Of a stretch of 64,000 bases of DNA, positions 45,284-63,680 are shown one piece after another; within the stretch, counting starts at the first letter, position 1, and every line of letters begins with the position of its first letter. This DNA is from a virus. The position numbers were made by a program, and so were the translations under genes. The DNA is taken from positions 62,001-126,000 of IMG/VR virus record IMGVR_UViG_3300020473_000020; one strand, 5' to 3'. The notes under the pieces are model-generated. The model was not told the DNA's origin. It ran no database searches and saw nothing but the letters and a program-made list of their open reading frames with translations.

Positions 45284-45754
45284 TTAAGCTTTTTCGTCAG
45301 CCGCATTAGCCTCGGCATCCTTAACGGCCTGCTCAAGCATTTCATCAAAGTTGACAGGGGCTAATAGCATTTGCGGGAAGCCACCATGAAGTGCCAGCTG
45401 CGAAATCTGATGACGTGCGTAAGGGTAAAGCTGTGAAGGGCAGTGTGACCCAAGTAAGCCCACGAGTTCTTGCTCATTATAGCCTGCAATGTCAAAGATA
45501 CCTGCTTGTTCAACACTAGCAGTGAACAACACCTTTTCTTTATCGTCAATATCTGTAACTTTTGCGAGCACTTCTACGACAACCTCATAGGTCGTATCAC
45601 TGAGCTTATCAGCACGCGTTTTTAAGTCGATCTCAATAGCAGGTTTCCATTCATCTAAGAACACGGCTGGCGTGTTTTCAGTCGTGAAGTTAGTGCTTTT
45701 AAAGTAGATCTTCTGTAGCTCAAACTTATATTCAATTTGTTCATTGTCAGACAT
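45284..45754 (-). CDS. secB: SecB-like export chaperone
   Basis: A 156-residue protein matching SecB along its whole length: YKFELQKIYFKSTNF at the start, VEQAGIFDIAGY in the middle, then the C-terminal CPSQLYPYARHQIS and GGFPQMLLAPVNFD. E. coli SecB has 155 residues and the same order. SecB keeps preproteins unfolded for SecA. A phage copy is unusual; it might aid export of phage membrane proteins, act as a general anti-aggregation chaperone with the J-domain protein next door, or counter a SecB-linked toxin system. These roles are inference. Confidence 0.93.
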   Translation of the reverse strand: MSDNEQIEYKFELQKIYFKSTNFTTENTPAVFLDEWKPAIEIDLKTRADKLSDTTYEVVVEVLAKVTDIDDKEKVLFTASVEQAGIFDIAGYNEQELVGLLGSHCPSQLYPYARHQISQLALHGGFPQMLLAPVNFDEMLEQAVKDAEANAADEKA

Positions 45755-56614: not shown

Positions 56615-57628
56615 ATGAAAAATATCTTGGATGCGAATGCTAAAAAAGCAACGTTGTTTCATATCCGCACAGCTAAGGACATTGATTGGTCGCAGTTGAA
56701 CGCCATGGCTTATAACCCTGAGCAGGCGCTCGATGTGAATAATAAACGCATCGGTTTTGTGCACCCGCTAGAAACCTTAGAAATTGCACCAGAAGGTGAA
56801 ATTTTCGAACAATACGAAGGCGGTCTGATCGGTGCTCTCCGCACGGACAAGTCTGTCGTAACTTCTACCGCAATTAAGCAAGCAGCAGCCGTTCAAATCA
56901 AACAGCGACTTGAGGAACTACCAGAAGACGCACGCTTGAGCAAAGAAGAACGCGAGTCTATTACAATCGCTGTACGTCAAAAGCTGCTTAAAGATTCTAC
57001 TGAGGTTTCTAGCTACGTCCCATTCATTATCGACGAGAAGAACTCAAGACTTATCATTTTCAGCACGACGTCTGATATTTTAGAAGCGGTAAAGGTACGC
57101 CTTAATAATATGTTTGCTGGTGACCTTGAATTGATTGACTACTCATCATTCGCAGTCAAAGCTGAGATCAACAATATAGCTGCAAAATTCCTTTCTAAGC
57201 TTCAAACATACCATACGGCTCATGCTGCCGATGCACATGATATGGTTTTCGAGGGCTGTGATGGCCTTAGCTTCGGCACAGGTGTGAAGCTATCATCATT
57301 CGACGATACGAGTGGTAACGATGGCGGGTTCCCGTCGATTGATGTCACCGACGAGCGCCTTTTACAGCTAATTGAAAGTGCTACGGGCATTGAGAAAATT
57401 GGACTGTTTCTTGTCCACTCGACAAGTGATATTGACTTCACACTTAACTCTAAGTTGCAGTTCGATAAGCTTGGGTTAGACAGTGTTCTGATTCATGGGT
57501 TGCAGGAAGATGACCTGCAAGACCCAACAGGTGAGATCCGCGCGACTGCTCAAATTCTAGCCGACTGTGTAGACATTATGCAGAAAAACGTAACGAATTG
57601 GCTTGGAATGTCTGAGCACATCGGATAG
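56615..57628 (+). CDS. RdgC-like recombination-associated protein
   Basis: A 337-residue protein. GGLIGALRTDKSVVTSTAIK matches the RdgC segment with conserved ALRTEKK, SYVPFIIDEKNSRLIIFS matches its central strand region, and IEKIGLFLVHSTSDIDFTL with KLQFDKLGLD matches the C-terminal part. RdgC forms a DNA-encircling ring dimer that restrains RecA filaments. In this phage it might protect the origin or damp host RecA. Length is a little above E. coli RdgC (303). The leader box ATCGAGACT (56590-56598) precedes the ATG. Confidence 0.68.
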   Translation: MKNILDANAKKATLFHIRTAKDIDWSQLNAMAYNPEQALDVNNKRIGFVHPLETLEIAPEGEIFEQYEGGLIGALRTDKSVVTSTAIKQAAAVQIKQRLEELPEDARLSKEERESITIAVRQKLLKDSTEVSSYVPFIIDEKNSRLIIFSTTSDILEAVKVRLNNMFAGDLELIDYSSFAVKAEINNIAAKFLSKLQTYHTAHAADAHDMVFEGCDGLSFGTGVKLSSFDDTSGNDGGFPSIDVTDERLLQLIESATGIEKIGLFLVHSTSDIDFTLNSKLQFDKLGLDSVLIHGLQEDDLQDPTGEIRATAQILADCVDIMQKNVTNWLGMSEHIG

Positions 57629-57768: not shown

Positions 57769-58455
57769 ATGCTTACTATAAGCAGAGGTCGGTTTGGTCT
57801 ATGGCCAAACATAAAGCAAGAGCGCCGAAAATTGAATAATAAAGACAACTCCACTGATAAAAACGCATCCCCCAGCGTCCGAACCCAAGCAACCACACCA
57901 CTTTTCCAAGGTATAGCTGCCTGCGACATTTTTCAACAATCGTTAGAAAGTGGGAAGCTAGTTAAAGTCGTAGAAGGTACCCCCGTAGATGAACGTGTGC
58001 TTGAGTTGCACGACGACTTGAATAAAGCGTTTCAATTAAATGCAATCCAAGCAGACCAGCTCGTTACGACTGAACGTGAGCTAACCGAACGCAATTTAGA
58101 AGTTGCTGAATTACAACAAGAACTGGCTGCGGCCAAAAAGCAACTAGGTATTAGCCCAACGACTAAAGTGGTAGATGGTACCCAAGCGCACAACCCAGAC
58201 TTAATTAAGCGCCAGCGTGAGGTTATCGACGTAATAAACGGACTGGTTCAGGACAGTAATAGAGACTTCGTAGAAATCCATGAGATAGTCGAACCATTAA
58301 AGAACATGCTTGAAGATGGCCATTCAGTGATCCTTAGCAGTGGTACTAAACTGGGTGACGACATTGCACGTATCATCACGATGATTGAAGATTATTTCCA
58401 CACATTCAATCTAAGACATATCGAAGTCAGGGGTAAGCTCTCGCCGAGTCAATAA
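57769..58455 (+). CDS. Hypothetical coiled-coil protein
   Basis: A 228-residue protein with a central heptad helix (ERELTERNLEVAELQQELAA). The N-terminal 45 residues look disordered. The start has no clear Shine-Dalgarno, so it may begin further in. Unknown. Confidence 0.6.
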   Translation: MLTISRGRFGLWPNIKQERRKLNNKDNSTDKNASPSVRTQATTPLFQGIAACDIFQQSLESGKLVKVVEGTPVDERVLELHDDLNKAFQLNAIQADQLVTTERELTERNLEVAELQQELAAAKKQLGISPTTKVVDGTQAHNPDLIKRQREVIDVINGLVQDSNRDFVEIHEIVEPLKNMLEDGHSVILSSGTKLGDDIARIITMIEDYFHTFNLRHIEVRGKLSPSQ

Positions 58456-58502: not shown

Positions 58503-58529
58503 AAAAATGCCGCTATAAGCGGCATTTTT
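58503..58529. terminator. Bidirectional terminator
   Basis: AAAAATGCCGCT and AGCGGCATTTTT form a 12-bp stem with an ATA loop, between the convergent coiled-coil gene and the GG-leader peptide gene. Confidence 0.88.
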
Positions 58530-58581: not shown

Positions 58582-58710
58582 CTATTTCACTGGGCGCTGG
58601 AAAGGTGACATGTCAGGCTCTCGCTCGATCTTCGGGTCACCACCTTGGTTACCGCCGCCAGCTACACCACCAGTCACTTTGGCTAAATCACTCTTCGATA
58701 GTTCTTTCAT
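58582..58710 (-). CDS. Double-glycine leader peptide (candidate secreted peptide)
   Basis: A 42-residue precursor. The first 15 residues, MKELSKSDLAKVTGG, fit the double-glycine leader of class II bacteriocins and peptide pheromones: L at -12 and L at -7, V at -4, GG at -2/-1. The predicted mature part is 27 residues, rich in glycine at its start (VAGGGNQGGD) and charged afterwards, ending in PFQRPVK, with no cysteine. GAGG lies ten bases before the ATG. It is the third gene of a minus-strand set with a membrane protein and an XRE regulator. No peptidase-containing ABC exporter is in the window. Bacteriocin, signal peptide or immunity-linked peptide are all possible. Confidence 0.75.
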   Translation of the reverse strand: MKELSKSDLAKVTGGVAGGGNQGGDPKIEREPDMSPFQRPVK

Positions 58711-58738
58711 CGTGTGTCATCCTCTAAAATTAGGCTAA

Positions 58739-59335
58739 TCACCCATTGTTAAACGGGTCTACTTTTAAACGCCTACCTACAAGACCATCTAGTGTCATTG
58801 TCAGTAGCGCAAAAGTTAAAGCAATAATTAGGCCAAGCTTAAAAGATGGGTACGTGTTGTATATAAACATTGGTTTCTCAGCAAGTATGCCTGAGTGGCG
58901 TACTACGTATTCGGCAACTAGCGTGAGATTCGCTGCTATAGAAAACCCAAATATTAAACGGATAAAATACTCTTGGCGGGCATAACCGAGGTCATTAAAA
59001 GCACGGTATATATAGCTAGTCGTGTCGTGAACACAAAGAAAGTTTGATAGCTTATGGCCAACACGTAGGCGGTATTTTAGAAGCAGTATTGCAGTCAAAT
59101 CTGATAAAGAGTAGCAAATTTGATGAACTATTAGTGAATTTGGCAAGTATGGTTGAAATACAAACAGGTCAACCATGGATAGTGTGAACAGGATTCCCAC
59201 TATCCATATACGCAATGCGTCCCTGATGTTTAAGCCCACTACAATAACCATCGCCAAAAAGTAAGCCGTTACGATGTAGGTCGAAGGCTTACTGTAGTCC
59301 AGATTATTAAAAGTGTTAACGAGTAAGTCATACAT
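58739..59335 (-). CDS. Multi-pass membrane protein
   Basis: A 198-residue protein with about five hydrophobic helices: TYIVTAYFLAMVIVVGL, WIVGILFTLSMVDLFVF, a weaker one near LTAILLLKY, LIFGFSIAANLTLVAE, and LGLIIALTFALLTMTL. The ATG at 59335 overlaps the XRE gene's end by eight bases, so the two are coupled. Ends 28 bases before the GG-peptide gene. It could be an immunity protein, receptor or export aid for that peptide; this is inference. No transporter ATPase or peptidase motif is visible. Confidence 0.75.
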   Translation of the reverse strand: MYDLLVNTFNNLDYSKPSTYIVTAYFLAMVIVVGLNIRDALRIWIVGILFTLSMVDLFVFQPYLPNSLIVHQICYSLSDLTAILLLKYRLRVGHKLSNFLCVHDTTSYIYRAFNDLGYARQEYFIRLIFGFSIAANLTLVAEYVVRHSGILAEKPMFIYNTYPSFKLGLIIALTFALLTMTLDGLVGRRLKVDPFNNG

Positions 59336-59669
59336 TATTCTTGTGTCCCTCATCCTTTAGTGCTTGTAGTACTACGTCCTTGTCTGCCAGTGAGAGCTGA
59401 CTAAATAGCTTAACAAAGAAGAGTACAGTGTGTTTTGCGAAACTAACACCGCCACCCTTTTTCCTTTGCGCTTCTAGCAGCATTTCATACTGCGAAACAT
59501 TTGGCTCACTGGTAGACTCTTCGTCTTCCCAGTTCCTAACAGTCGGCGCAGTTACGTCAACGAGTGCGCCAAAGTTCGTTAAATTCATTCCCAAGTTTTT
59601 GCGCATAGCTGCAACGTTTCTTGAGACTTGTCGAGTGCGTGTCGTCGGCACTCGCTTCGCGGCCACCAT
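59328..59669 (-). CDS. XRE-family helix-turn-helix regulator
   Basis: A 113-residue protein. Residues about 18-55 (AAMRKNLGMNLTNFGALVDV followed by TAPTVRNWE) form a Cro/CI-type helix-turn-helix with the typical TVRNWE recognition helix. The C-terminal half (FFVKLFSQLSLADKDVVLQAL) may dimerise. GAGGA lies eight bases before the ATG. It heads the membrane protein/GG-peptide set and could repress it, or bind the dispersed TTGTACAA palindromes; both are untested. Confidence 0.8.
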   Translation of the reverse strand: MVAAKRVPTTRTRQVSRNVAAMRKNLGMNLTNFGALVDVTAPTVRNWEDEESTSEPNVSQYEMLLEAQRKKGGGVSFAKHTVLFFVKLFSQLSLADKDVVLQALKDEGHKNNV

Positions 59670-59951
59670 AAGCGGTTCCTCAGCGGTAAAACTTTTTTAT
59701 TAATCGGTATTTTTTAAATTTTTTTAAAATCCCCTGTGCTACAGTCGTTTGCATCAAAGGAATCACCGCATTTTAATGAAGAAGTTCGAGTGGTCAAACG
59801 AAAAGCGTAGGAATTTATAAAAATCAGCCTTTTACATTAGTAATTGGGCTTGTTGCGCCTGTTTTTTAAGCGACGCTACTGGCGGCGCACGTTAGAACAA
59901 TTGTTTATTTAAGGCTCAGTAGTTAACTGGCCTTGTCACATGGAAAGACCG

Positions 59952-60344
59952 ATGGAAAGCACGATCGAAAAATATAAAACGACCCATGACTCAGATTCAC
60001 AGCATTGTGATTGCTCGGAGAACGTTGTGGGTTTTAGCAGGGGTGAATGCGCGAGTGAGATTCAGGCTCTACAAAGAACGGTAGATGCCTATAAAGATTT
60101 AGCGCAAAGACAGGGGAGTGTTATTGAACTACTCAATGAGCTTCTTGTCGAAGCAAATACCGTTATAATTGAGGCGCAGGCTGCGGTTAAGCCTGTGGCC
60201 AGTCATATAACAGATGGTAACTCTTTAATTGTAAGTCCTACTAACACCATGGGAGCGGGGCTAGCAAGCCTTATCGAAACAGTCGAGCAGTATGAAAAAG
60301 AGTACCGCCGAGGTCTTTCAGCGGTTCAGGGTAAACTTGCTTAA
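59952..60344 (+). CDS. Hypothetical helical protein
   Basis: A protein of about 130 residues. A cysteine pair near the N-terminus (HCDC) precedes a long helix (SEIQALQRTVDAYKDLAQRQ). An ATG at 59940 is also possible, but the one at 59952 has GGAA in place. Unknown. Confidence 0.55.
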   Translation: MESTIEKYKTTHDSDSQHCDCSENVVGFSRGECASEIQALQRTVDAYKDLAQRQGSVIELLNELLVEANTVIIEAQAAVKPVASHITDGNSLIVSPTNTMGAGLASLIETVEQYEKEYRRGLSAVQGKLA

Positions 60345-63310: not shown

Positions 63311-63511
63311 ATGGCGAAAACGCAAGGCACCAGCCTGCTTCATATTAACACCCTACGGTCATGGTCGACATCAGTATCAATTGAGGTCAACGGCGCGACT
63401 AAGTGGGTACATAAAAGACCAAAGGGACTAACCAGTTTTAGGGAACGTCTTAGCATTGCATTTAAGGTATTCAAAGGGGAAGCTGATGCTGTCGTATGGG
63501 AACAACAATAA
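63311..63511 (+). CDS. Small basic hypothetical protein
   Basis: A 66-residue protein (MAKTQGTSLLHINTLRSWS) ending in VFKGEADAVVWEQQ, a type of ending common in small unknown phage proteins. AGGA lies eight bases before the ATG. It overlaps the next gene. Confidence 0.65.
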   Translation: MAKTQGTSLLHINTLRSWSTSVSIEVNGATKWVHKRPKGLTSFRERLSIAFKVFKGEADAVVWEQQ

Positions 63512-63680
63512 CAATAACAATAACTATAATAACATAGTCGATGGTGTTGCTCGTATCTTCCTCGATAATCGCGATGACGACGACGTAAAAATCATTACAA
63601 AAATAAAAACAAAATTTCCTATGCTTTCGCATGAAGAAAGGCTAAAGGTTATGCGCCAAGTGGCTGAGAGGTTTTCGTAA
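63486..63680 (+). CDS. Small hypothetical protein with poly-asparagine run
   Basis: A 64-residue protein. Right after the start MLSYG comes a run of eight Asn, then YNN, encoded by AAC/AAT triplets. The rest is a helical, charged domain (SHEERLKVMRQVAERFS). GGGGA lies five bases before the ATG at 63486. It overlaps the previous gene by 26 bases and shares TAATG with the next. Confidence 0.65.
   Translation: MLSYGNNNNNNNNYNNIVDGVARIFLDNRDDDDVKIITKIKTKFPMLSHEERLKVMRQVAERFS
63500..63534 (+). repeat. AAC/AAT trinucleotide repeat
   Basis: A slippage-prone triplet run encoding poly-Asn near the N-terminus of the small gene. Copy number changes would keep the frame. Confidence 0.75.

Follow-up and report, generated by a model that had tools for sequence, protein, structure and literature searches.

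Why would a marine phage carry a gene for a very short, apparently exported peptide together with a regulator and a membrane protein? The question is raised by three adjoining minus-strand genes at 58582-59669 of the window studied here, that is, the whole 64-kb stretch analysed out of the 138-kb IMG/VR virus record IMGVR_UViG_3300020473_000020. A reading made from the letters alone (hereafter the sequence-only reading) had described them as a helix-turn-helix (HTH) regulator, a protein of about five membrane helices and a 42-residue peptide with a textbook double-glycine (GG) leader, and had proposed a secreted peptide for killing rivals, host manipulation or signalling. We think it somewhat probable that the three genes form an exported-peptide signalling cassette using a C39 exporter of the host, a function suggested by the leader, the conservation of the operon, gene fusions and natural swaps of the export signal.

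All three open reading frames (ORFs) were confirmed on the minus strand in the positions first proposed, in the order XRE regulator (59328-59669), membrane protein (58739-59353) and, last in the operon, peptide (58582-58710). The XRE-type HTH regulator, of 113 residues, matches the PHROG 7950 transcriptional repressor (2e-5) and has a homologue in an operon of Pseudoalteromonas peptidolytica (L031; 34% identity over 87 residues, 6e-18). Five helices are indeed predicted in the membrane protein, whose likelier start is the ATG at 59335 (58739-59335, 198 residues; helix prediction and family profile A4), since this overlaps the end of the XRE gene, ATGTATGA, by 8 nt; an upstream start at 59353, giving 204 residues, is possible.

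The precursor consists of MKELSKSDLAKVTGG followed by VAGGGNQGGDPKIEREPDMSPFQRPVK. Its 15-codon leader, MKELSKSDLAKVTGG (58666-58710, minus strand), has L-12, L-7, V-4, G-2 and G-1, as expected of a C39 substrate (L-12, hydrophobic residues at -7 and -4, and the two glycines), and these positions are also conserved in 25 family peptides. The description as a textbook leader is borne out by the TIGR01847 (bacteriocin_sig) model, which it matches with 18.2 bits against a curated cut-off of 15.7, and by the fact that no other ORF of the window fits the canonical GG-leader pattern (0.1 expected, 40 Markov shuffles). Could so short an ORF, which has no above-threshold match in PHROGs or Pfam, be no gene at all and its GG motif an accident? 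We regard this as scarcely credible and reject it: homologous peptides (L031:1277-1420 and L143:4668-4790) occupy the equivalent site in two other phage operons, the leader exceeds the curated cut-off against the low expectation from shuffles, and the relatives' peptides are under purifying selection. The 42-residue peptide thus looks like a true gene.

Relatives on phages and chromosomes

Searches with single sequences were empty because the relatives are only about 30% identical: neither DNA and tblastn searches with the region, the peptide and the membrane protein against phages and plasmids, nor exact-pattern scans of viral and genome contigs with the single membrane protein, gave a match. 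The phage was placed in Pseudoalteromonas through its ParA and capsid proteins, and those whole genomes were then searched with profiles. Homologous peptides beside XRE and membrane genes, which the sequence-only reading had proposed to seek in related phages, were found in two operons. One lies on C33, a 51-kb contig of P. peptidolytica that is a temperate siphophage (terminase, portal, capsid, tape measure, integrase, repressor and ParA); its XRE / membrane / peptide operon has a membrane protein 30% identical to that of the window and the peptide MKELSKKLAKAVVGGGAGTGDQGGPPQ..., and the laboratory strain P. peptidolytica DSM 14001, which harbours C33, has several cassettes. The other is an equivalent operon, with the peptide MIELSKEASKAVSGGNTGTGDQGGRPLALRAVITYNKKKP, on the 53-kb IMG/VR phage contig L143. 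A fourth copy is found at a different locus on the Pseudoalteromonas phage-plasmid NZ_CP072685, where the peptide ORF, ending in ...YDTLKNVSGGSGGDQLPKEVRPK, has no listed gene (the gene table is incomplete). In the tree, the copies of the window, C33 and L143 fall with three other copies in one clade of six (support 0.99), and that of NZ_CP072685 branches outside it. Judging from these sequences, the cassette has been captured by phages at least twice.

The family is mainly chromosomal, and we therefore reject a phage-specific invention: what had been taken for a phage cassette belongs to a large bacterial family since picked up by phages. A 13-row profile matched 33 of 397 Alteromonadaceae genomes in a whole-genome search, several of them with at least eight copies, and the seed genome was the sole match among 369 sampled Gammaproteobacteria, so the family looks restricted to an Alteromonadaceae-type lineage. 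We found no description of an XRE / membrane / peptide cassette in the literature searched, which comprised open-licence papers, and the family is apparently both large and undescribed in Pseudoalteromonas-type bacteria.

Among 100 non-redundant membrane genes, an XRE gene lies just upstream in 77 and is fused to the membrane gene in nine. A GG-type ORF is present on the coding strand of 63 of the 100 loci, compared with 22 on the opposite strand, which served as a control. The commonest order is XRE-peptide-membrane, and that of the three related phage copies is XRE-membrane-peptide. The fusions, which join XRE to a domain of five or six helices, occur in two tree branches (L084, L089 and L138 in one, L134 in the other), have no peptide gene between their two parts and adjoin complete cassettes. 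Their presence in two branches indicates that both proteins act jointly, as expected of a sensor but not of plain immunity; accordingly, we favour, from these gene architectures, a putative membrane sensor coupled to transcription. At two loci (L150, on G002:C27, and L134), two or three such fusion genes, possibly extra receptors, have no accompanying peptide gene.

The 25 family peptides share a C39-type leader (L-12, L-7, V/I-4, GG). The expectation that leaders would be conserved and mature parts variable held for the leader; in the mature peptide the glycine-rich first part is conserved as well, and only the C-terminal tail varies freely. The core contains glycine and often DP at +8/+9 (e.g. 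SGGxKGxDP). Some precursors are tandem, with several leader-core units (five in L080) or with several cores. Beside XRE and membrane genes, three loci (L096:2074-2568, L097:2055-2918 and L098:2072-2839, numbered along the membrane-gene strand) encode secreted proteins in which a Sec signal precedes many near-perfect repeats of 13-14 residues (AMTKGTQKPPMALL, SSRRVPPAPELIA, SSKRKPPVAQLAMT) and which look like multi-copy peptide precursors. The sequence-only reading had also staked itself on a GG leader and an intact frame persisting in related genomes: the leader is conserved there, and no disabling stop codons or frameshifts were found. The ratio of nonsynonymous to synonymous changes (pN/pS) of the peptides was 0.18, 0.38 and 0.33 in three ortholog sets, denoting purifying selection, and 0.10, 0.24 and 0.16 in their membrane partners, the peptides being less constrained. 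Directly after three cassettes lies a Cys-rich GG ORF of 74 residues, MDLKLNKKQLKSL.G...EIGGGCSY.CSR.LNCD..., which resembles the precursor of a modified peptide (L056:1974-2198, L103:2633-2857 and L105:2654-2878, reverse-strand coordinates).

No membrane-protein family of Pfam, PHROGs, NCBIfam or PADLOC covers the membrane protein. AlphaFold gave a poor model from the single sequence (predicted local distance difference test, pLDDT, 51) and a good one with 13 homologues (pLDDT 83, predicted template modelling score, pTM, 0.78), and a fold search of the PDB with this model found no match (best E 1.3). Near-invariant residues of the family are R89, E142, R146 and Y159. The weak fold matches in BFVD are small membrane proteins of phages, themselves without a known function, which raises the question of whether the membrane protein is itself the effector, acting for instance through growth arrest or superinfection exclusion, with a periplasmic peptide tuning it and the XRE protein keeping the operon low. 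The phage operon does hold nothing beyond the three genes, and phage-borne copies in two tree branches would suit a host-altering moron. However, PADLOC gave no defence match (its only hit, RmrA at E 0.011, falls on the HTH, and a PADLOC defence system was rejected), the core of the family is chromosomal and highly paralogous, and fusion to XRE points to transcription; we consider an effector quite improbable.

Export routes and function

The signalling function that we propose would proceed as follows. The phage would make the 42-residue precursor, and a C39-peptidase ATP-binding cassette (ABC) exporter of the host would cut it after GG and export a glycine/proline-rich peptide of 27 residues, as suggested by the leader and the natural swaps of export signal. 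Outside, this peptide would be sensed by the five-helix inner-membrane protein, which would control its partner XRE regulator and, through it, switch transcription; for this step we draw on the conservation of the operon and the XRE-membrane fusions. Carried by a temperate phage or phage-plasmid, the cassette would let that element signal or gauge how dense the cassette-bearing cells are.

The C39 exporters whose presence in the host had been proposed as a check do occur in the probable hosts. Strong C39-peptidase matches were obtained in 66 of 109 Pseudoalteromonas genomes and in 15 of 15 cassette carriers of the first search, an enrichment (p=2.6e-4) calculated without phylogenetic correction. 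Family-wide, eight cassette genomes have no C39 match at 1e-18. GG peptides are found in 19 of 25 C39-positive cassette genomes and in 0 of 8 C39-negative ones (Fisher p=2e-4; classes assigned partly by eye). Six of these eight carry similar cores behind a Sec-type signal peptide: SSGGTKGDP, present twice, in L090, TGGKKEPP in L095 and L152, TGGKKMPP in L099, tandem KGTQKPP in L096 and SSKRKPP in L098. The other two (L079 and L088) retain a similar core with no recognisable export signal. Since similar cores occur under different export signals, the site of action of the mature peptide is arguably outside the cytoplasm.

Several points weigh against the proposed signalling cassette. No C39 exporter gene is present in the phage record; the p-values are overstated, as the GG and Sec classes were assigned partly by eye and the genomes are drafts from related species; three peptides (L087, L088 and L079) have no clear GG or Sec signal; and a fourth ortholog set gave an uninformative pN/pS (5 changes). 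Two of these peptides (L087:1229-1465 and L088:1249-1458, reverse-strand coordinates) have a Gln/Ser/Thr-rich N-terminus with a VSIS/VTIS-E-A motif and end in SSGDRGTRPK or GSSDGNGGKPK; peptides of this type may leave the cell by a third route.

The host exporters (ABC and HlyD-like genes at L069:8549-18995 and L068:2231-16611) lie, by eye, beside LanC-like (lanthipeptide-enzyme-like) or radical-SAM-like genes and are therefore probably not dedicated to the cassette peptide. A Cys-containing precursor-like ORF was also seen by eye within these exporter clusters (L069:17189-17389). Cassette and C39 exporter are about 30-37 kb apart in three related species, which was not used as evidence.

The main competing explanation is a bacteriocin cassette, in which the peptide would inhibit related bacteria, the membrane protein confer immunity and the XRE protein regulate both, as a weapon for the lysogen. 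Class II bacteriocins and microcins typically have GG leaders and C39 exporters, the leader here matches TIGR01847, and the numerous divergent paralogues, each paired with its membrane gene, resemble the diversification of toxin-immunity pairs. However, the mature parts are short, hydrophilic and Gly/Pro-rich, with neither a membrane-active helix nor Cys; the nine fusions, next to complete cassettes, are a poor fit to plain immunity; and tandem short cores are unlike microcins. We judge a bacteriocin rather unlikely and, from the XRE-membrane fusions and tandem repeats, favour signalling over killing or host manipulation.

The phage that carries the cassette

Among annotated phages, terminase and capsid are nearest to Rhizobium phages of the Kleczkowskaviridae. 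In its capsid protein the phage shares 72% identity with the 128-kb NZ_CP072685, which has genes for tail sheath and baseplate, and 89% with a 202.6-kb contig of Pseudoalteromonas sp. B95; the gene order of ParA, the next partition-region gene and lysozyme is shared with these elements. By sequence, then, this phage is related to Pseudoalteromonas phage-plasmids, and from the capsid identity and gene order its host is probably Pseudoalteromonas or a near relative. ParA and two more partition-region genes (L006:7555-11330, record 132.5-136.3 kb) stand in the same order as on the Pseudoalteromonas phage-plasmid, which makes maintenance as a plasmid probable for this phage. In IMG/VR, searches by terminase and RdgC returned no close phage.

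The cassette is absent from the B95 phage, the closest relative. The flanking plus-strand genes at 57769-58455 (matching L066 14754-14194 of the B95 phage) and 59940-60344 (34% over 82 residues to L066 14439-14194) match one and the same B95 gene, so the cassette looks to have been inserted between two copies of a single gene. On the minus strand, a Shine-Dalgarno sequence, AGAGG (58721-58725), lies 10 nt ahead of the peptide ATG, as GAGG does 7-10 nt ahead of the L031 and L143 peptides, and a strong intrinsic terminator (12-bp stem and T tail, 58503-58529) follows the peptide gene. A possible promoter upstream of the regulator (TTGACC-16-TAAAAT, 59770-59797) is a weak candidate, because promoters around the cassette are no more numerous than in shuffles. 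Elsewhere in the window are a SecB-like export chaperone (45284-45754, minus strand; the annotated secB product of the Pseudoalteromonas phage-plasmid has 59% identity to it), an RdgC-like recombination protein (56615-57628, plus strand; 66% identical in the B95 phage) and an ORF in which a short AAT/AAC repeat encodes a run of Asn, GNNNNNNNNYNN (63456-63680, plus strand).

Comparison with known systems

Peptide signalling is the rule in Gram-positive bacteria and their phages, but Gram-negatives have few established signals of the gene-encoded peptide kind. Among regulators, membrane-bound XRE one-component proteins of the BcrR type join an HTH to several membrane helices, as do the fused copies L084, L089, L134 and L138. 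BcrR senses bacitracin, whereas the cassette has five or six helices, mostly separate genes and a peptide gene in the operon.

The arbitrium system (AimR-AimP-AimX) and the RRNPP regulators of Firmicutes and their phages (PMC6458997, PMC10075063) share with the cassette a phage-borne small secreted peptide adjoining an HTH regulator, probable population sensing, and relatives on chromosomes, plasmids and phages. The arbitrium-like trait of a short secreted propeptide gene in the regulator's operon is thus present, through a GG leader and not Sec. In contrast, a tetratricopeptide-repeat (TPR) receptor binds the re-imported peptide in those systems, and the cassette has no such receptor; it includes a membrane protein, relies on a GG leader and C39 export, and occurs in Gram-negative hosts. 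Membership was rejected, as the 113-residue regulator is an HTH alone with no TPR match in Pfam or NCBIfam. A secreted GG-leader peptide with its own regulator and membrane partner in one cassette stands as first proposed; the likeness to arbitrium drawn there does not extend to homologous parts.

Class II microcins and bacteriocins (TIGR01847; PMC9746304) likewise have a GG leader, C39-ABC export and a small ORF that shares its operon with the gene of a small membrane protein. The cassette differs in lacking a dedicated exporter in the phage record and in its hydrophilic Gly/Pro core, XRE regulator, XRE-membrane fusions, tandem cores and Sec-signal versions; with no exporter in the phage and a hydrophilic core, a classical microcin cluster was rejected. 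The Nap island of Neisseria (PMC11798529) also provides horizontally acquired bacteriocin-like peptides in a Gram-negative, in which no antimicrobial activity was reported; Naps are cationic and autolytic, and the abstract does not describe an XRE plus five-transmembrane-helix cassette. Also comparable are GG-exported regulatory, non-killing peptides of Gram-negatives, namely the cyanobacterial GG-motif secreted small proteins that control biofilm (PMC4997328) and the HetC exporter (PMC10986499), which belong to other gene families and organisms and have no receptor/regulator cassette.

The peptide genes of the cassette are short and readily overlooked. With its lineage-wide spread, numerous paralogues in each genome, naturally exchanged export signals and receptor-regulator fusions, the family lends itself readily to experiment, and the phage copies allow a direct test of whether Gram-negative phages communicate by peptides. 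Tentatively, the whole could represent an undescribed peptide-pheromone system of Gram-negative marine bacteria, in which a receptor of five or six helices would act through, or fused to, an XRE regulator, with interchangeable C39 and Sec export, and which temperate phages and phage-plasmids would have captured for communication: a counterpart of arbitrium built from unrelated parts.
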